From Synechococcus sp. CCY 9618 (GTDB taxonomy: Bacteria; Cyanobacteriota; Cyanobacteriia; PCC-6307; Cyanobiaceae), in contig NZ_JAFKRG010000042.1 of assembly GCF_019038415.1 (NCBI RefSeq), forward strand, positions 1 through 45,909: a DNA stretch of 45,909 bases. Reading direction: 5' to 3'. A model generated the notes under the pieces. That model worked only from the letters and a program-made list of their open reading frames with translations, made no database searches and had not been told where the DNA came from. Of the stretch, positions 3,731-24,370 are shown piece by piece (position 1 is the first letter of the stretch; each line of letters begins with the position of its first letter). A program made the translations under genes and the position numbers.

Positions 3731-5613
3731 GCCTGATCAGCCTGGTGGGAGCGGCCAAGGACTTCGGCCTGCGCAGCCTCTTCGCCGACCTCGACCTGCA
3801 CGTGGGCGAGCGGGACCGGCTGGGGCTGATCGGCCCCAACGGCGCCGGCAAGAGCACATTGTTACGGGTGCTGGCGGGCCTCGAACCCCTGGATCGGGGC
3901 GAGCGCCGCTGCTCGGCCCGCACCCGGGTGGTGCTGCTCGACCAGGAACCGCGGCTGGATCCGGATCTCACCGTGCTGGAGCAGGTGTTCGCCGGCGACG
4001 GCGAGGCCATGTCCCTGCTGCGGGCGTTCGCCGGGGTGAGCCACCAGCTGGCCGCCCAGCCGGAGGATGGCCAGCTGCTGGCCCGGCTCAGCGACCTGCA
4101 GCACCGCATGGATGGCTGCCAGGCCTGGGACCTGGAGCGACGCTGCCGGGAGGTGCTGGAGCGCCTGGGCATCGACGCCGCCAACCAGGAGCGGACCATC
4201 GGCGAACTCTCCGGCGGCAACCGCCGCCGGGTGGCCCTGGCGGCGGCCCTGGTGGCCGAGCCGGAGCTGCTGCTCCTGGATGAGCCCACCAACCACCTGG
4301 ATGCCGAAGGGGTGGAGTGGCTGCAGAGCTACCTGGACCGCTTTCCCGGCGCCCTGGTGCTGGTCACCCACGACCGCTACCTGCTGGATCGGGTCACCCG
4401 CCGGATCGTGGCGGTGGAGCGGGGCGAGGCCCGCCCCTACGAGGGCAACTACGGCACCTACCTGGCCCTCAAGGCGGCCGAGGAGGAGGCCGAGGCCTCC
4501 AGCGCCGCCAAGCTGCGGGGCACCCTGCGGCGGGAGCTGGCCTGGCTGCGCCAGGGCCCGAAAGCCCGCAGCACCAAGCAGAAGGCCCGGCTGCAGCGCA
4601 TCGACGCCCTGATGGAGGCCCCCGCCCGCCAGGGCCGCGCCAGCCTGACCATGGCGGCCACGGCCCGGCGCATCGGCAAGCGGGCGATCACCGCCGAGGG
4701 GCTGGGGGTGGCGGTGGGCGAGCGCTGGCTGCTGCGCGACTTCAGCTACGACTTCAGCCCCGAGGACCGGGTCGGAATCATCGGGCCCAACGGGGCGGGA
4801 AAATCCAGCCTGCTGGAGGTGATCGCCGGACGGCGCCCCCCCAGTGCCGGCGCGCTGGAGCTGGGAGCCACGGTGAAGCTGGCCTACTTCGACCAGCACA
4901 GCGACGTGCTGCTGGCCCGGGATGGCAAACGCAAGGTGATCGAGGTGGTGCAGGAGGCCGCCAGCCGGGTGCAGGTGGATGGGGTGGAGCTCACGGCCTC
5001 CCAGCTGCTGGAGCGGTTCCTGTTTCCGCCGGCCCAGCAGCACCAGCCGGTGGCGAAGCTCTCCGGCGGCGAACGGCGGCGTCTGCACCTCTGCCGGCTG
5101 CTGATCGAGGCCCCCAACGTGCTGCTGCTGGATGAGCCCACCAACGACCTCGACGTGCACACCCTGGGTGTGCTGGAGGAGTTTCTCGACGACTTCCGCG
5201 GCTGTGTGGTGGTGGTCTCCCACGACCGCTGGTTCCTGGACCGGACCGTCGACCGCCTGTTTCACTTCGAAGCGGGCCGGCTGGAGCGCTTCGAGGGCAA
5301 CTACAGCACCTGGCTGGAGCGCCAGGCGACGGCCCCCCTGCCTGCCCCGACCCTGGAGCCGGCCGCGGCCCGGAAGCAGGCGCCGGCCGGCCCCCGCCGG
5401 CGCAGTTTCAAGGAAGGACGCGAGCTGGAGCGCATCGAAGCGGAACTGCCCGACCTGGAGCAGCGGCGGCGGGAGCTGGAGCAGCAGCTGGCAGCCCCCT
5501 CCGGCGGCACGTACGCCAGGCTCGAAGACCTCACCAGCGAACTGGCGGCCCTGGTGGAGCGGATCGCCGCCGCGGAGGAGCGCTGGCTGGTGCTCAGCGA
5601 GCTGGCGGCCTGA
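3727..5613 (+). CDS. ABC-F family ATPase (Uup-like)
   Basis: A 628-residue protein with two ABC ATPase domains and no membrane segment. Domain 1 has Walker A GPNGAGKST (about residues 36-44), signature LSGGNRRR and Walker B LLLLDEPTNHLD. Domain 2 has GPNGAGKSS (near 355), LSGGERRR and LLLDEPTNDLD. A basic linker rich in KARSTKQKAR joins them, and the last 80 residues are charged and coiled-coil-like, as in Uup. ABC-F proteins act on ribosomes (translation factors) or on branched DNA (Uup). It ends an operon with two upstream genes. The last 20 bases overlap the end of a converging damaged gene. Confidence 0.92.
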   Translation: MSLISLVGAAKDFGLRSLFADLDLHVGERDRLGLIGPNGAGKSTLLRVLAGLEPLDRGERRCSARTRVVLLDQEPRLDPDLTVLEQVFAGDGEAMSLLRAFAGVSHQLAAQPEDGQLLARLSDLQHRMDGCQAWDLERRCREVLERLGIDAANQERTIGELSGGNRRRVALAAALVAEPELLLLDEPTNHLDAEGVEWLQSYLDRFPGALVLVTHDRYLLDRVTRRIVAVERGEARPYEGNYGTYLALKAAEEEAEASSAAKLRGTLRRELAWLRQGPKARSTKQKARLQRIDALMEAPARQGRASLTMAATARRIGKRAITAEGLGVAVGERWLLRDFSYDFSPEDRVGIIGPNGAGKSSLLEVIAGRRPPSAGALELGATVKLAYFDQHSDVLLARDGKRKVIEVVQEAASRVQVDGVELTASQLLERFLFPPAQQHQPVAKLSGGERRRLHLCRLLIEAPNVLLLDEPTNDLDVHTLGVLEEFLDDFRGCVVVVSHDRWFLDRTVDRLFHFEAGRLERFEGNYSTWLERQATAPLPAPTLEPAAARKQAPAGPRRRSFKEGRELERIEAELPDLEQRRRELEQQLAAPSGGTYARLEDLTSELAALVERIAAAEERWLVLSELAA

Positions 5614-6015
5614 GCCTGAGCGCCGCCGCCGGTGGGGGTGGGGCACCTCCAGCAGGCCTGTCGCTGCGGCGGCGCGAGGGGGCTGACCGCACACCGGGCC
5701 CACGGGCTCCGGCCTGACGCATCGCCGTGGGTTTGTAGTCGTCGACACAGCGATGGGCGGCCAACTGGTCGCCCATGCGGCGCAGGTAGAGATCCTGGAA
5801 CCATTGCACCGCATCGCTCTGGAAGGCCCGCAGGGCCTCGTCGAGGCTGGCGAAGCGCTGGCTCACCAGAGCGCTGGGAGCGCACTGCTTCCAGAGGAGC
5901 ACCTGCTCGAAGCTCAGTCCCGGGCGCCAGCGGCGCTGCTCCGAGAGGTAACCGTGGTCGTCGATCCGTGGTCGTCGATGAAGTGCCGCTCCCGCCGCTT
6001 GCTGATGCGCGTCAT
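5594..6015 (-). pseudogene. Unknown cyanobacterial gene broken by a 14-bp duplication
   Basis: The ATG at 6015 starts MTRISKRRERHFIDDHG; the frame is then lost, and it stops after about 33 codons. A second minus frame continues at exactly that point with GYLSEQRRWRPGLSFEQVLL and stays open for about 120 residues to 5594, rich in aromatic residues and clearly protein-like. The cause is visible: a perfect tandem copy of 14 bases (5952-5965 and 5966-5979). Removing one copy fuses the frames into one protein of about 135 residues. I do not recognise the family. This could be a recent mutation or a sequencing/assembly error. Confidence 0.65.
5952..5979. repeat. Perfect 14-bp tandem duplication
   Basis: Two adjacent identical copies of CCGTGGTCGTCGAT. 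The length is not a multiple of three, so the duplication shifts the reading frame of the minus-strand gene that spans it. Confidence 0.95.
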
Positions 6016-18365: not shown

Positions 18366-19115
18366 TGCGATCTTCATTGACGGTACAGGGCTGGGGTTGA
18401 TCTTCCAGCATCCACGCGCTGGGTGGACTGGCGCTGATTCAAGGCAAAATGGACCCGTGGCTCTACAGGTCTGACCAGGCAATTCGCGACAAGCGGTGGG
18501 TACGGGCACGCGCGGACCACATGCGCTGGAGGCACCGGGATTGGAATTGAGAGGAGCATGAACGCCAGAGGCCCGCTTGAAGGGGGGCTTGGCAGGGCGT
18601 GACAACCATTGAGACAGGTCCATGCCAGCTGCTCATGGCCCCCCTGGCCAAGCATTCCTCAGCATTTCAATGCACCATGCAGGCCCCGGTGGTGGCGGTG
18701 GTCATCCATCGTTATGTCTTTCCGCGCACTGGCGCGGGCGAATGCCACAGCTGTTCGCCACCAGTGCCGCCGCCCATACGGCCAAGCTCAGGCAACGCAT
18801 CAGCCTGGTGGAAACATCCGAGGTCTCCACCCCTCGCCAGGGGCCGAACAAGCCTTCGCGGCCTGTCGTGACTTCCAGGTCCCCCGCCACCGGGTCCTGC
18901 GCAGCATGTTCAGCCAGATCACTGGATCCGCCGCTCCATCTGAACGGACCCTGCCGAGCCCCGTTTCTGATGACGGTGACAACTCTGACTTCACCCGGGC
19001 CCCTGGAAGAGAGCCCTGCGGCCTTGGCTTCTGGCAGGAGTGGTTTGGGGATACCAACCCTGCGGCCGATTCCCTGCTACCGGTGGACTTCCGGACTTCG
19101 CGCGGACCAGCCGTC
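18366..19115. other. 750-base interval without a convincing gene
   Basis: Several frames are open here but none looks protein-like throughout. A 33-codon frame at 18449-18550 (MDPWLYRSDQAIRDKRWVRA onward) is rich in charged and Trp residues and could be a gene remnant. The frame of the downstream amylase stays open back to 18609, with an ATG at 18906 that would add about 70 residues. Base composition is mixed and codon use is unlike the neighbours. I see no RNA gene or repeat. Confidence 0.45.
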
Positions 19116-20774
19116 ATGACCGCCATCTTCGAAGAACTCAAACGCCGCGTCCTGGAAACGGAGATGGATCCGGCCCAGGCCACCGGCACGGCGACGGTGG
19201 CCCTGCTGCGGGCGTGGCTGGCCAGCCATGAGCCCGCCCTGGCCGCCCGCAAGCTGGCCGCACCAACGGAATTCAACGGCACGCTGATGCAGTGGTTTCA
19301 CTGGTACAGCCCCGCCGACGGCGGCCACTGGCGGCGGTTGCAGGATGAAGCGCCGGCCCTGGCCCAGGCGGGCATCACGGCCCTGTGGCTGCCGCCGGCG
19401 GGCAAGGGCGGCAGCGTCTGGGACGTGGGCTATGGCACCTACGACCTTTTCGATCTGGGTGAATTCGACCAGAAGGGCACGGTGCGAACCAAGTACGGCA
19501 CCAAGGCGGAGTATCTGCAGGCCGTGGGCGCCTGCCAGGCCGCCGGGATGCAGGTGTACGCCGATGTGGTGTTCAACCACAAATTGTTCGGCGATGAGCA
19601 GGAGGACTACCTCGCCACCCCCTGCGACCCCGCCGACCGCAACCGCCCCCTGGGCGACGAACGCACCATCCGCGCCTGGACCAGCTTTCGCTTCGACGAG
19701 CGGGGCGGCCAGTACTCGACGATGCAGTGGCACTGGCACCATTTCGACGGCGTCGATCACAACAGCCTCGATCCGGATTTCAATGCCGTCTGGCGCACCC
19801 ACGGGGCCAGCTTCGAGCGCAACGTGGATCTGGAGAAGGGCAACTACGACTACCTGATGGGCTGCGATCTGAACGTGAACCACCCGGAGGTGCGCGGCGA
19901 GCTGAAGCACTGGGGCCGCTGGACCCTGGAGCACGTGGGCGCCGATGGCTTCCGGATCGATGCCATCAAGCACATCTCCAGCGACTTCTTCCTCGACTGG
20001 ATCACCGACCTGGAGACCCATAAGGGCCGCGATCTGTTCGTGGTGGGGGAGTACTGGAGTTACAACCTGGAGACCCTCCACTGGTACGTGGCCAACAGCG
20101 GCGGCCACATGAGCCTTTTCGATGCCCCCCTGCACCGCAACTTCCACCTCGCCAGCCGCAGCGGCGGCCACTACGACATGCGCCGCCTGCTGGACGGCAC
20201 CCTGATGCAGGAGTTGCCCCTGCTGGCGGTGACCCTGGTGGAGAACCACGACACCCAGCCGCTGCAGTCACTGGAATCGGTGGTGGAGCCCTGGTTCAAG
20301 CCCCTGGCCTATGCCGTGATCCTGCTGCGGGATCAGGGCTACCCCTGCATCTTCCACGCCGATTACTACGGCGCCCACTACAGCGACACCAAGAACGGCC
20401 AGACCCACGAGATCTGGCTGCCCAGCCACCGCTTTCTGATCGATCGCTTCCTGATGGCCCGCGGCCACTGCGCCTACGGCCCGCAATACGACTACATCGA
20501 CCACGTCAACACCATCGGCTGGACCCGCCTGGGCACCCCCGGCCACCCCCGGGCCATGGCCGTGCTGCTCAGCGATGGGGCCGCCGGCAGCAAGTGGATG
20601 GAGGTGGGCAAACCCCACACCCGCTTCCGGGATCTGACCGGCCACCTGGGGCAGACGATCACCACCAACGGCGACGGCTGGGCGGAATGGCGCTGTCCGG
20701 GTGGCTCGGTGTCGGTGTGGGTGGAGGAGGCGGCCCTGGCGGAGCTGGGGGTGGTGCTTCACAACGAGCGGTAG
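19116..20774 (+). CDS. Alpha-amylase, GH13 (cytoplasmic GH13_5 type)
   Basis: A 552-residue protein from ATG 19116, chosen because MTAIFEELKRRVLE begins the protein-like part; an upstream ATG at 18906 is possible. The TIM barrel starts with FNGTLMQWFHWYSPADGGHW. The four GH13 regions are visible: DVVFNH, the nucleophile in DGFRIDAIKH (about Asp280), the acid/base Glu in VVGEYW (about 312) and the third Asp in VENHDT (about 378). There is no signal peptide, which suits a cytoplasmic enzyme that cuts alpha-1,4 bonds in glycogen or maltodextrins. The last 16 bases overlap the converging prodomain-like gene. Confidence 0.9.
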   Translation: MTAIFEELKRRVLETEMDPAQATGTATVALLRAWLASHEPALAARKLAAPTEFNGTLMQWFHWYSPADGGHWRRLQDEAPALAQAGITALWLPPAGKGGSVWDVGYGTYDLFDLGEFDQKGTVRTKYGTKAEYLQAVGACQAAGMQVYADVVFNHKLFGDEQEDYLATPCDPADRNRPLGDERTIRAWTSFRFDERGGQYSTMQWHWHHFDGVDHNSLDPDFNAVWRTHGASFERNVDLEKGNYDYLMGCDLNVNHPEVRGELKHWGRWTLEHVGADGFRIDAIKHISSDFFLDWITDLETHKGRDLFVVGEYWSYNLETLHWYVANSGGHMSLFDAPLHRNFHLASRSGGHYDMRRLLDGTLMQELPLLAVTLVENHDTQPLQSLESVVEPWFKPLAYAVILLRDQGYPCIFHADYYGAHYSDTKNGQTHEIWLPSHRFLIDRFLMARGHCAYGPQYDYIDHVNTIGWTRLGTPGHPRAMAVLLSDGAAGSKWMEVGKPHTRFRDLTGHLGQTITTNGDGWAEWRCPGGSVSVWVEEAALAELGVVLHNER

Positions 20775-21313
20775 GCCCGCTGCATCAGCAGCTGCACCTC
20801 GACGCTCTCCACACCGGCCATCGCTTCCAGCCTGGAAACGCCGGCCAGGGCATCGCCGATGCTGCCGGACCGGGCCCGCAGCCAGCCGGCCCGGGGCGCA
20901 TGCTCCAGACCCTCGGCCATGGGAAAGCCGGCCTGCGCCAGCTCGACACGGTGCGCCTCGACGGTGTCCCCCTCCCGGAAGCGGATGAACAGTCGCCCCG
21001 TGGGGCAGGCCAGGGAAACACCGTCCTTCGGGGCATAGACGGGGCTGACCTGCTGGCCGGGGGCCAGGGGGCCGGCGGGGGCGCCCCGCAGGATGGCGAT
21101 CCCCTCGGCTTCGAACACCACAACCGCCCGTGTCGTGGGCAGGGGTTCACCGTGGAGGGCGAAATAGCCGGGCTGCCGTACATACACCAGCTCCTTCGTG
21201 GCACCCGCCCTGATCTGCGGGGGGAAGCCATCCGGAAGCGGATCATCCGTGGGCGCCACGGTGCCTCCAGCGAACAACGGAACATCCGGCCACAAGCTGT
21301 ACAGGTAACTCAT
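20759..21313 (-). CDS. Stand-alone subtilase-prodomain-like protein
   Basis: A 184-residue protein without signal peptide or membrane segment. Residues 107-182 align almost without gaps to residues 114-190 of the divergent subtilase at 21509: RLFIRF against NLFIKF, then shared EA, L-G, W, A-VE and a basic end. An earlier stretch (VVVFEAEGIAIL) also matches FREAGVELL of the protease prodomain. It has no catalytic domain. I infer a free prodomain that could inhibit or help fold the neighbouring protease. The similarity was read by eye and needs a profile comparison. The stop lies inside the amylase 3' end. Confidence 0.6.
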   Translation of the reverse strand: MSYLYSLWPDVPLFAGGTVAPTDDPLPDGFPPQIRAGATKELVYVRQPGYFALHGEPLPTTRAVVVFEAEGIAILRGAPAGPLAPGQQVSPVYAPKDGVSLACPTGRLFIRFREGDTVEAHRVELAQAGFPMAEGLEHAPRAGWLRARSGSIGDALAGVSRLEAMAGVESVEVQLLMQRAYRSL

Positions 21314-21508
21314 CCATCAGCGGGGCACCCTTGAAGAAGAATGAAGTGTTTCCCCCCATGACACCTGTTCAAGACATGGCGGCTTCGCCGTAAAGAGCAG
21401 CGCTGAGAAGGGAGAATGGCTCCAGAAATCTGATCTCCGCCTACGCCATTCCGCTGCAGCTTCGCTGAATCTCCATTCTCTCCCTGACCTTCCCCAGGAG
21501 CCCTTCCC

Positions 21509-23497
21509 ATGGTCCAGGTTTGCTACGGCGGGAAAAACGGACAGCCCCTTGAGCTGGAGATCAGCGCCAATCACCTCGTCGTCCGCACCCGCAGCCGCCA
21601 GGCGGTGATGCCGGAGCGCCCGTTTGAAGTGTCGCCGCTGAGCGCCGAGGCCCGCCGGGTGCTGAGCCAGTTCGAGACCATCACCCGGTTCCGGGAGGCG
21701 GGCGTCGAGCTGCTGAGCACGAAAACCGGCCAGGCCGATGGCGGCCTGCGCGACACCGCCCGCCGCCTGCTGAAGGCTGAACAGGCAGTGGCCTTTGCCG
21801 GGCGGGTGCTGGTGGATGCCTTTGCCCGGCCGGTGGTCTACACGGAGAACCTGTTCATCAAGTTCCAGGACGACGCGGATGCCGAGGCCTGCCAGAGCCT
21901 GCTGCGCCGCCATGGGCTCACCCCGAAGCGGGCCCTCGACTACGCCCGCCATGCCTGGTTCGTGGCGGCCCCGGGCGACAGCGGTCTGGCCGTCTTCGCC
22001 ATCGCCAGCAGCCTGCTGGCGGAAGAGATCGTCGAGCTGTGCCACCCCGAACTGGTGAGCCGAAGCCGTCAGCGCCGGCAGGCCTTCCCTCCCCAGTGGC
22101 ATCTCAGGGCCACCACGGTGAACGGCCGGCAGGTGGATGCCCATGCCGAGGTGGAGGCGGCCTGGCAGCTCAGCGACGGCACTGGGGCGATCGTGGCGGT
22201 GGTGGATGACGGCATCGACATCGACCATGAGGAATTCCGCTCCTCAGGCAAGATCGTCGCCCCGCGGGATGTGACGCTGCGCAGCGGCGATCCCCGCCCG
22301 GGCCGGGGCGACGACCACGGCACGGCCTGTGCGGGGGTGGCCTGCGCCAACGGCCGGTTCGGCGCCGCCGGCGTGGCCCCCGGCGCCAGGCTGATCCCGA
22401 TCCGGCTGACCTCCGGCCTGGGGTCCCAGGCGGAGGCCGATGCCTTCGTGTGGGCGGCCCGCAACGGGGCCGACGTGATTTCCTGCAGCTGGGGCCCACC
22501 GGACGGGGCCTGGTGGGACCCGAACGATCCGACGCACCTCCAGGTGGTGCCCCTGCCGGACTCCACCCGGCTGGCGATGGACCATGCCATCCAGCAGGGC
22601 CGCAGCGGCAAGGGATGCGTGATCGTGTTCGCGGCAGGCAACGGCAATGAGAGCGTCGACCATGACGGCTACGCCAGCTACCCGAAAGTGATCGCCGTGG
22701 CCGCCTGCAACGACCAGTCGACGCGCAGCGTCTACAGCGACTTCGGCCGGGCCGTGTGGTGCAGCTTCCCAAGCAGCGACGGCCGGCCGTCGCTGACCCC
22801 AGGCATCTGGACCACCGATCGCACCGGCGTGGAGGGGTACAACCAGGGCACGCTGCGCAAGGGCGATCCGGCGGGCCACTACACCAGTTCCTTCGGCGGC
22901 ACCTCCAGCGCCTGCCCCGGGGTGGCGGGCGTGGCGGCCCTGATCCTGGCCCGCAATCCGGATCTGCGCTGGGACCAGGTGCGGGAGATCCTGCGGCAGT
23001 CCTGCGTGCGGATCGATCCGGCAGGGGGCCGCTATGACACCGATGGGCGCAGCCCGTTCTACGGCTACGGGCGGGTCAATGCCCGCAGGGCGGTGGAGCT
23101 GGCCCTGCCGCCCCAGCCGCAGGCGGCGGTGATCTTCCAGGTGGTGCAGGACGTGCCGATCAACGACTTCCAGACCTCCACCCTCTCGCTGCCGGTGGCC
23201 GGCCAGGGGCCGCTGACGTCGCTCACGGTGGCGGTGGATCTGGACCACACCTACATCGGCGATCTGATCCTCACGCTGCTCCCACCGGCGGCCATGGGAG
23301 CCGGCCCGATCGTGCTGCACGACCGGGCCGGCGGCGGCACCGACAACATCAAGGACACCTACGACGCCATCAACCGGCCCGCCCTTGGCAGCCTCGAGGG
23401 CAGGGATCCAACGGGCACCTGGACCCTGGAGGTGGCCGACCGGGCCGGCCAGGACAGGGGAACCCTGCGCAGCCTGCGGCTGAAGATGACCTTCTGA
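21509..23497 (+). CDS. Kexin-like S8 subtilase with prodomain and P domain
   Basis: A 662-residue serine protease with a CAGGAG ribosome site 9 bases before its ATG. Residues 1-195 look like a prodomain. The peptidase domain has the triad Asp233 (VAVVDDGIDIDH), His270 (GDDHGTACAG) and Ser466 (FGGTSSACPG), with oxyanion Asn378 (FAAGNGN). A P/proprotein-convertase beta-sandwich occupies about 540-662 (LTSLTVAVDLDHTYIGDLIL, then GTWTLEVADRAG). There is no signal peptide, so it is either intracellular or exported by a non-Sec route. It is divergent from the free prodomain-like gene. Confidence 0.9.
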   Translation: MVQVCYGGKNGQPLELEISANHLVVRTRSRQAVMPERPFEVSPLSAEARRVLSQFETITRFREAGVELLSTKTGQADGGLRDTARRLLKAEQAVAFAGRVLVDAFARPVVYTENLFIKFQDDADAEACQSLLRRHGLTPKRALDYARHAWFVAAPGDSGLAVFAIASSLLAEEIVELCHPELVSRSRQRRQAFPPQWHLRATTVNGRQVDAHAEVEAAWQLSDGTGAIVAVVDDGIDIDHEEFRSSGKIVAPRDVTLRSGDPRPGRGDDHGTACAGVACANGRFGAAGVAPGARLIPIRLTSGLGSQAEADAFVWAARNGADVISCSWGPPDGAWWDPNDPTHLQVVPLPDSTRLAMDHAIQQGRSGKGCVIVFAAGNGNESVDHDGYASYPKVIAVAACNDQSTRSVYSDFGRAVWCSFPSSDGRPSLTPGIWTTDRTGVEGYNQGTLRKGDPAGHYTSSFGGTSSACPGVAGVAALILARNPDLRWDQVREILRQSCVRIDPAGGRYDTDGRSPFYGYGRVNARRAVELALPPQPQAAVIFQVVQDVPINDFQTSTLSLPVAGQGPLTSLTVAVDLDHTYIGDLILTLLPPAAMGAGPIVLHDRAGGGTDNIKDTYDAINRPALGSLEGRDPTGTWTLEVADRAGQDRGTLRSLRLKMTF

Positions 23498-23504
23498 GGG
23501 CCCC

Positions 23505-23870
23505 TCAGAACTTGCCGGTCAGGGCCCGGGTGGTGCGCACCAGCCCGGCGGTGGTTTCCGGCAGGTAGGGACCCTTGAGCATCTGGCCGCCGATGCGCAG
23601 GCTGATGCCGGCCAGGAACAGATCAAGGGCCGCCACGGCGGCGGCGGCCTGCAGCCAGCTCAGGGGGAAGGCCCCCTTGATCCACAGCACCAGCATCAGC
23701 TCAGCGGCCACCAGGGCCAGGGCCATCAGGGTGAGGCCCATGCCCAGCATCACACCGCCCCCCACCAGCCGCCGCTTCTCACGGTCGGCCTCCTGCAGGG
23801 CGATGCGCACATGCAGATCCATCACCGAGCTGATCAGGGCCGTGACCCGGCCCATGGTCTTGCCGTTCAT
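23505..23870 (-). CDS. Phage-holin-superfamily-like membrane protein
   Basis: A 121-residue protein with two hydrophobic helices (MLGMGLTLMALALVAAELML and LSWLQAAAAVAALDLFLAGI) and an amphipathic N-terminus, the layout of the Holin-X/YqjE group of small membrane proteins. These are not phage lysis proteins in this context; they occur with DUF883/YqjD proteins. The start overlaps the stop of the upstream DUF883-like gene (ATGA), so the two form a unit. The function is unproven in cyanobacteria. Confidence 0.7.
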   Translation of the reverse strand: MNGKTMGRVTALISSVMDLHVRIALQEADREKRRLVGGGVMLGMGLTLMALALVAAELMLVLWIKGAFPLSWLQAAAAVAALDLFLAGISLRIGGQMLKGPYLPETTAGLVRTTRALTGKF

Positions 23871-24370
23871 GCCGAACGCCGACCGGGGGACAGCAGCAGA
23901 CCCACCAGCAGGCCCACGCCGGCGGCGATGCCGAGGGCCATCAGCGGCCGTTCCCGCACCGGCTTCTCGATCCGGGGCCGCAGGCTGGAGTTGAGCTCAT
24001 CCAGCAGATGCTCCAGCTGCTCCTCCAGAGGCCGCAGCGTGTCGACCACATGGCCCGCCTGCTCGCCGGTCACGTTGACCAGATCCATCAGCTGCTGCTT
24101 CACACCGGAGGTGGTGAGACCGCTCTGGCGGCTGATCACCTCCACCACATGGTCGAGGCTGCCCCGTGTGGCCTCCAGGGTGTGGCGGGCCACCTCGGGC
24201 CATTCCTTCTGGATGGTGGGCAGCAGGCTCTCGAAGCGGTCGCGGAACTGGTTCTGCACCTGCTGTCCATCACCGGATTCGATGGCGGCACCCGACCCGG
24301 AGGACGGAGTGGTTGATGGCGCGTTGGATGGCGCGTTTTCAGTGGCGGGATGGGTGGTGTCCGTCTCCAT
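23867..24370 (-). CDS. DUF883/YqjD-like tail-anchored protein
   Basis: A 167-residue protein from ATG 24370. The first 40 residues are Thr/Pro/Ser-rich and disordered, the middle is a long amphipathic helix region (RFESLLPTIQKEWPEVARHT onward), and the C-terminus is a single membrane helix (PLMALGIAAGVGLLVGLLLS) with a short basic tail. This matches ElaB/YqjD proteins, which sit in the inner membrane and bind ribosomes in stationary-phase E. coli. It is coupled to the holin-like gene downstream and divergent from smc. Confidence 0.72.
   Translation of the reverse strand: METDTTHPATENAPSNAPSTTPSSGSGAAIESGDGQQVQNQFRDRFESLLPTIQKEWPEVARHTLEATRGSLDHVVEVISRQSGLTTSGVKQQLMDLVNVTGEQAGHVVDTLRPLEEQLEHLLDELNSSLRPRIEKPVRERPLMALGIAAGVGLLVGLLLSPGRRSA

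Follow-up and report, generated by a model that had tools for sequence, protein, structure and literature searches.

The window, the whole 45,909-nucleotide stretch of contig NZ_JAFKRG010000042.1 of Synechococcus sp. CCY 9618 analysed here, carries a divergent gene pair in which a small prodomain-like protein is encoded beside a subtilase that has a predicted prodomain of its own. The small gene (20759..21313, minus strand) encodes a stand-alone protein of 184 amino acids with conserved homologues; its open reading frame (ORF) has a stop codon two codons upstream of the start, and another stop follows the prodomain-like module. The neighbouring gene (21509..23497, plus strand) encodes a kexin-like S8 protease of 662 amino acids with a P-domain. 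The 195 bp between the two genes (21314..21508) presumably hold both promoters; a scan of this region with the sigma-70 consensus found none.

The protease exhibited two Pfam domains, a Peptidase_S8 catalytic domain (PF00082, residues 224-521, 22178..23071, plus strand, E 7.2e-44) and a P-domain (PF01483, residues 571-659, 23219..23485, plus strand, E 1.3e-10). By sequence, the solved protein nearest to it is kexin (E 2.1e-31), followed by mirolase and furin, and the kexin and furin alignments begin at protease residue 192. Residues D233, H270, N378 and S466 are invariant across eight orthologues, and from these features the protein reads as a kexin-like S8 protease with a D-H-S triad followed by a P-domain. 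The end of its prodomain is marked by R187-Q-R-R190 (22067..22078, plus strand), followed by Q-A-F-P-P-Q-W-H-L. R187, R189 and R190 are invariant across the eight orthologues, giving R-x-R-R as the junction of the genome's own family, which we take to resemble that of furin. In a second family (f7, see below), five of the six proteases read have R-E-[FSL]-R-Q-R-Q at this place and one has R-E-L-R-R-R-Q, so that R-E-x-R is common to all six. Because the arginines are invariant and the similarity to kexin and furin starts directly behind them, residues 187-190 are the probable autoprocessing junction, at which cleavage would take place. In the kexin/furin alignment, D332 and D386 of the protease fall on the aspartates of the kexin SWGPAD and NYDGY motifs, and their counterparts presumably form the S1 pocket that selects Arg/Lys. 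Together with the basic junction, these acidic residues point to an enzyme that would cut behind dibasic or R-x-x-R sites. The N-terminus begins with MVQV and presents no signal peptide by eye; the enzyme is probably intracellular.

The small protein, described in an earlier note on this DNA as lacking a catalytic domain, indeed matched no Pfam family even with the E cutoff raised to 10, and its comparison with NCBIfam returned nothing meaningful. By BLASTP, its residues 105-182 aligned with protease residues 112-189 with 24 identities in 79 positions (30%) and E 0.001 in a single comparison. Profile-profile comparison, the check that the earlier note had proposed, was carried out with hhalign. 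With 7 versus 8 rows the match was weak (P 0.00099, probability 21.6); with 11 versus 11 rows P was 9.4e-5 (probability 58.8), and with 16 small proteins against 17 protease N-termini it was 1.6e-5 (probability 79, 79 columns). Adding 23 related cyanobacterial protease N-termini gave P 5.1e-6 and probability 86, while the small family compared with those 23 alone matched weakly (P 0.018, probability 2.5). Using 41 small proteins, P was 3.4e-5 and, with the related proteases added, 2.4e-6. In 200 column shuffles of each large profile the real score was never reached (40.0 against a maximum of 23.9, and 44.4 against 28.7), and the reversed profiles scored 10.7 and 15.0. The homology of small-protein residues 102-182 to protease residues 109-189, beyond chance, is thereby confirmed. 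The alignment first drawn by eye had covered protease residues 60-190 or so. Its part over 109-189, reaching to about 95 when the related proteases are included, stands as significant; the full range drawn is wider than the statistics bear out. The N-terminal halves of the two regions, compared alone, gave non-significant P values of 0.2 and 0.098, and full-length homology to both halves of the protease N-terminus, which our reading of the strand order had suggested, is consequently not claimed; one weak pairwise match, between residues 47-182 of the small protein of another genome (L068) and 61-190 of the G323 protease, with 26% identity and E 0.009, speaks for the wider range.

We then compared AlphaFold2 models of the two regions, built from 11-row alignments. 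In the small protein, the model presents strand 102-112, helix 119-127, strands 132-135 and 142-146, helices 152-157 and 159-163, and strand 168-177, with block means of the predicted local distance difference test (pLDDT) of 71-95 over residues 101-180. In the same way, the protease N-terminus presents strand 114-119, helix 125-134, strands 138-142 and 149-153, helix 161-170 and strand 175-181 (block means 68-87 over 111-180). The module of the small protein (residues 102-177, 20783..21010, minus strand) and the protease's own prodomain module (residues 109-181, 21833..22051, plus strand) are thus predicted to share a β-α-β-β-α-β order at matching places. The N-terminal part of the small protein (residues 1-101, 21011..21313, minus strand) was modelled with strands at 44-54, 65-67, 72-76 and 88-95, residues 1-41 being unreliable.

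In Foldseek searches of the Protein Data Bank (PDB), the best matches of the small-protein model included subtilisin propeptides, the propeptide of PAM protease, PC1/3 prodomains in complex with furin and ORF2 in complex with the Aeromonas sobria serine protease (ASP), RNA-binding proteins being interspersed among them; ORF2 ranked sixth for the small model and first for the protease prodomain model. In the VIA structure comparison, ranks 1-11 of the small model were all subtilase propeptides (Z 7.2-7.7, root-mean-square deviation (rmsd) 1.7-2.4, 57-67 aligned residues), the best being 3whi_A (Z 7.7, rmsd 1.7, 60 aligned), and the model also matched the PC1/3 prodomain 9fid_F (Z 6.6, rmsd 2.6, 72 aligned) and ORF2, 3wqb_B (Z 6.6, rmsd 3.4, 92 aligned over residues 33-183). 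The entries 4jp8, 3wiv, 2zwp and 3wiu, whose titles say only Pro-S324A and similar, we take to be Tk-subtilisin. For the protease N-terminus, ranks 1-6 were PC1/3 and subtilisin propeptides (best 9fic, Z 8.6, rmsd 3.3, 76 aligned); ORF2 was not among the 50 VIA matches listed for it, and POIA1 was among its matches in both Foldseek and VIA. The shared predicted order of elements and the matches of both models to subtilase propeptides agree with the structural likeness, and with the protease prodomain within residues 1-190, that had been proposed from the sequence. The fervidolysin-type prodomain family PF22148 (Fervidolysin_NPro-like) matched 2 of 17 small-family members (best E 0.0073), which is noise level, the unrelated TAL_effector family matching 3 of 17 (best E 0.006). 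The small protein of the window itself had no PF22148 or I9 match in Pfam, and the PDB searched with the small family yielded only two weak unrelated matches (E 0.34 and 0.56).

The C-terminus of the small protein, R-A-Y-R-S-L, contains an R-x-x-R motif (R-A-Y-R, residues 179-182, 20768..20779, minus strand) followed by S-L and the stop. A [RK]-x-x-R motif at most three residues from the C-terminus was found in 39 of 43 distinct genomes with the small gene (40 of 44 sequences before G550, which had entered twice, was counted once), the exceptions being K-G-L-K, M-R-R-R and two longer ORFs; outside this motif the tail varies from family to family. As the tail resembles the protease junctions and the protease has kexin-type acidic residues, we suggest that it can lie in the cleft like the end of a cleaved prodomain. 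E172 is invariant in the 17 rows of the small-family alignment. For propeptides, a helix-capping glutamate is described in the sections of PMC6993865 drawn on here, and by our own alignment E172 would stand at its place. Residues 1-100 are partly conserved in the family, present no significant match to the protease and may contribute specificity or location.

The occurrence of the pair was surveyed in 201 genomes of the same family, in 292 genomes across the phylum and in 217 genomes of the second family, f7. In its own family, a full-length protease orthologue (79-84% identity) is present in 8 of the 201 genomes, that of the window counted. The small gene (E 5e-44 or better) is present in seven genomes, each time adjoining the protease and divergent from it, i.e. 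in 7 of the 8. Other S8 proteases, partial or of 34-41% identity, were left out (12 of 20 own-family and 40 of 47 phylum genomes), as were, as chance, 15 weak small-protein hits in the own-family survey (E 7.5e-5 to 0.0087), of which nine places lie in eight genomes without a strong hit and six are second places in genomes with one, and a hit in G147 (E 0.0077) in the phylum survey. A candidate second copy in the window's own genome (C14, E 0.0018) was likewise rejected as chance; it sits in a 517-residue ORF that we read as Hsp70-like. Among contigs of named genomes, a scan with the single small protein gave nothing, and a scan with the small-family alignment gave ten loci, titled Cyanobium, Synechococcus and Aphanothece, at all of which the protease stands divergent beside the small gene. 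Five of these (L051, L054, L055, L058 and L059) may repeat survey genomes, so that named and survey counts are not additive. In L050-L054 the pair is kept although the outer neighbours have changed. The amylase-like gene that adjoins the window pair is not within the stretch in L050 and lies several kb away in L051-L054; on the far side of the pair, L051 has a 3-kb gap and the usual genes are absent from the L052 stretch.

Across the phylum, the small gene (E 3e-39 or better) was found in the window's own genome and in five genomes of a single other family, f7, where it adjoins a full-length protease 64-66% identical to that of the window. In f7 at large, the protease is present in 62 of 217 genomes, the small gene in 56 and both in 55 (Fisher P 1.9e-42, which ignores relatedness and is descriptive only). 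In all 55 genomes the two genes share a contig and stand head to head; the matched stretches are 227-833 bp apart in 53, and 5,026 and 7,720 bp apart in the other two. In G550, the only f7 genome with the small gene alone, the contig ends within the pair. Conserved linkage, which the earlier note had named as a touchstone, is therefore seen in 7 of 8 protease genomes of the own family and 55 of 62 of f7. None of the six other ORFs around the window pair was found in the 15-16 kb read around five f7 pairs. Since the pair occurs in two distant families without shared flanks, transfer as a unit is suggested. No clear small gene without the protease was seen in the 201, 292 and 217 genomes, weak chance-level hits excluded; in the phylum survey, the small gene was found only with a full-length orthologue, and none was clear in genomes having only 34-41% identical proteases. 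Plasmids and viral contigs contained no relatives at E up to 1e-3, nor did phages at the same threshold with the homologue from L067 as query. In the f7 genome G576 (L160, 4681-9620), the 7.7-kb gap holds what we read as a transposon-like ORF pair and an NB-ARC/TPR-like ORF, the orientation of the pair being kept.

The small gene encodes a protein under purifying selection. The ratio of nonsynonymous to synonymous substitution rates (dN/dS, Nei-Gojobori) over the core, for 430 pairs with moderate synonymous change, has a median of 0.28 and a maximum of 0.79; L123, L124 and L007 were left out of this set and one genome entered twice. The protein evolves faster than the protease, the identities to the window copies being 39-64% for the small protein and 63-84% for the protease.

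It is established that a subtilase prodomain first helps its enzyme to fold and afterwards blocks it (PMC6993865). We think it rather likely that the small protein, as a subtilase prodomain with a gene of its own, works in trans as an inhibitor of the mature form of the kexin-like protease next to it. As the protease already has its own prodomain, the simplest role for a second one supplied in trans is that of dedicated inhibitor; and as some genomes keep the protease but not the small gene, an accessory regulator or inhibitor is favoured over an obligatory folding helper. The dependence runs one way, the small gene never being clearly alone and the reverse occurring. From these features we infer binding, inhibition, the cleavage site, the compartment and the physiological role as follows. 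The protease would fold with its own prodomain and cut behind the basic stretch 187-190. The small protein would then, or instead, dock its β-α-β-β-α-β module onto the mature catalytic domain, with its R-x-x-R tail occupying the arginine-selecting substrate cleft in a product-like manner. The mature protease would be held inactive until the small protein is degraded or removed, and the small gene would be regulated separately, from the divergent promoter. A fuller proposal is put forward tentatively, at a little under even confidence: the pair would be a bacterial two-gene module, a counterpart of Plasmodium SUB1-ProM, that moved as a unit between distant cyanobacterial families and in which the second, separately transcribed prodomain serves as resettable inhibitor only, the kexin-like protease having one of its own.

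Among the closest known systems is SUB1-ProM of Plasmodium, reported in the consulted sections of PMC6993865 as a separate propeptide-like inhibitor whose gene lies next to that of SUB1, a protease that has a propeptide too, and as dispensable in culture. Both cases present a small propeptide-fold protein whose gene adjoins a subtilase with its own propeptide. They differ in that inhibition was measured there, in a eukaryotic parasite, while here there are the arrangement and a predicted fold. Plasmodium SUB1 is, moreover, not known to be of the P-domain kexin type. Stand-alone propeptide-fold inhibitors of subtilases, a type to which the small protein conforms in having its own gene and no catalytic domain, include POIA1, yeast proteinase B inhibitor and Arabidopsis SPI-1 (MEROPS I9), and also TgMIC5; unlike the small protein of the window all of these are eukaryotic and, in the sections cited, not described as gene neighbours of their targets (PMC6993865). 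In the open-access literature searched, we found neither a described cyanobacterial pair, of which the earlier note had known none either, nor, in any bacterium, a separately encoded prodomain next to a protease that already has one. What would be new is a bacterial pair whose protease keeps its prodomain, SUB1-ProM being known in a eukaryote and ORF2 for a prodomain-less protease.

Several observations weigh against a dedicated inhibitor. The models are modest, with overall mean pLDDT of 66.7 for the small protein and 51.5 for the protease N-terminus; neither had a Foldseek match in the PDB at E 0.001 or better, and Z values below 8 can mean merely a common fold, so the predicted structures are supportive only. 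Many tails, that of the window included, run one to three residues past R-x-x-R, and the two extra C-terminal residues (S-L) of the window protein are absent from the ten named relatives. Four of these ten (L050, L051, L052 and L054) present by eye a signal-peptide-like N-terminus. Such a start, with none on the protease, would separate the two proteins if both by-eye readings are right, and localisation may differ between members of the small family. Finally, the protease is found without its partner. G175, the eighth genome of the own family, has the same neighbour order with the small gene missing (L049; the amylase ends at 4882 and the protease starts at 4992), and G323, a sixth f7 genome in the phylum survey, has the protease alone. 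Five genomes in which the contig extends 1.4 kb or more in front of the protease have no small gene in the stretch read (G175, G323, G548 and G571) or keep a relic of 30 residues (G584); in the f7 survey G554 also has the protease without the small gene, while in G578 and G529 the protease lies near a contig end and the small gene was not seen, which is inconclusive. In G548 (L158), one weak small-protein hit (E 7e-4) falls within the prodomain of the protease, as expected from the homology.

The signal-peptide-like N-termini of these four, whose small genes start near 5890-5990, consist of a hydrophobic stretch ending in A-x-A or similar. No clear signal peptide was seen by eye in the window protein, in L053 and L055-L059 or in five aligned f7 small proteins, and a signal peptide was rejected as a trait of the small family.

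The alternative with the best claim, though we hold it unlikely, is that the small protein is an external folding chaperone that aids folding or maturation of the catalytic domain in trans, inhibition being a by-product. Its model would be ORF2, described in the part of PMC5638518 consulted as a separate bacterial prodomain-like protein whose C-terminus lies at the active site of ASP and which also inhibits it; ASP is kexin-like, has no propeptide and needs ORF2, and orf2 lies adjacent, downstream in the operon. As in that system, a separately encoded prodomain-like protein stands beside a kexin-like subtilase, and 3wqb_B, among the closest structures in Foldseek, matches both models and aligns with the small protein over most of its length in VIA. 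The protease here, unlike ASP, has its own predicted and well-conserved prodomain (residues 1-190) and the genes are divergent; its retention in G175, G323, G548, G571 and G554 argues against an obligate need for a partner.

Some other modulation, with the small protein as sacrificial substrate, as exchange factor displacing the cleaved prodomain or as targeting partner, is improbable in our view. The residues that follow R-x-x-R, up to three in many members, could mark a cleavage site, and the N-terminal 100 residues may have a further role; prodomains are known chiefly as inhibitors and folding helpers, and nothing points directly to the other roles. Chance resemblance of an unrelated ferredoxin-like protein to a prodomain is very improbable: the fold is a common one, the structural matches of both models include ferredoxin-like chains that are unrelated (RNA-binding domains, ribosomal S6) and the first profile comparison was weak, but the later profile scores were beyond all shuffles, the tail resembles the protease junction and the gene is linked to exactly that kind of protease. 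That the small ORF is the remainder of a second protease after loss of the catalytic domain is hardly credible, since, despite its homology to the prodomain and the remnants or truncations in G584, G581 (a 23-residue match among the 55 pairs) and G592 (a 120-residue frame, the protease frame of the same genome containing TAG), selection on the gene is purifying, its head-to-head position beside the protease is conserved in two families and it overlaps a convergent amylase-like ORF by 16 bases, which leaves no space for a catalytic remnant.

If the small protein is a trans-acting prodomain inhibitor, one domain has been divided between two tasks, folding in cis and control in trans. The pair would then offer a small testable system for studying the control of a kexin-like protease that is probably intracellular, in cyanobacteria ranging from small-genome Cyanobium relatives to a family whose genomes measure 5 to 11 Mb.

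Other S8 proteases are common in the phylum. A widespread group (L078-L100), 34-41% identical to the window protease and mostly encoded in frames of 696-739 codons, included two tested members with a P-domain and a near-threshold PF22148 fervidolysin-type prodomain. The calcium-dependent Anabaena protease PrcA is a cyanobacterial S8 enzyme that needs its propeptide for folding, and the 34-41% identical proteases are perhaps of its type; unlike the pair described here, genomes having only these showed no clear small partner. PrcA is named in a table of PMC3610870, in the part consulted.

On the other side of the small gene, an alpha-amylase-like gene (18609-20774, plus strand, PF00128, E 5.4e-18) overlaps it tail to tail at 20759-20774. 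Beyond the protease, Holin-X-like (PF07332) and DUF883-type (PF19029) genes on the minus strand (23505-24370) lie before an SMC-like gene, and the order protease, Holin-X-like, DUF883-type, SMC-like is conserved across many relatives.

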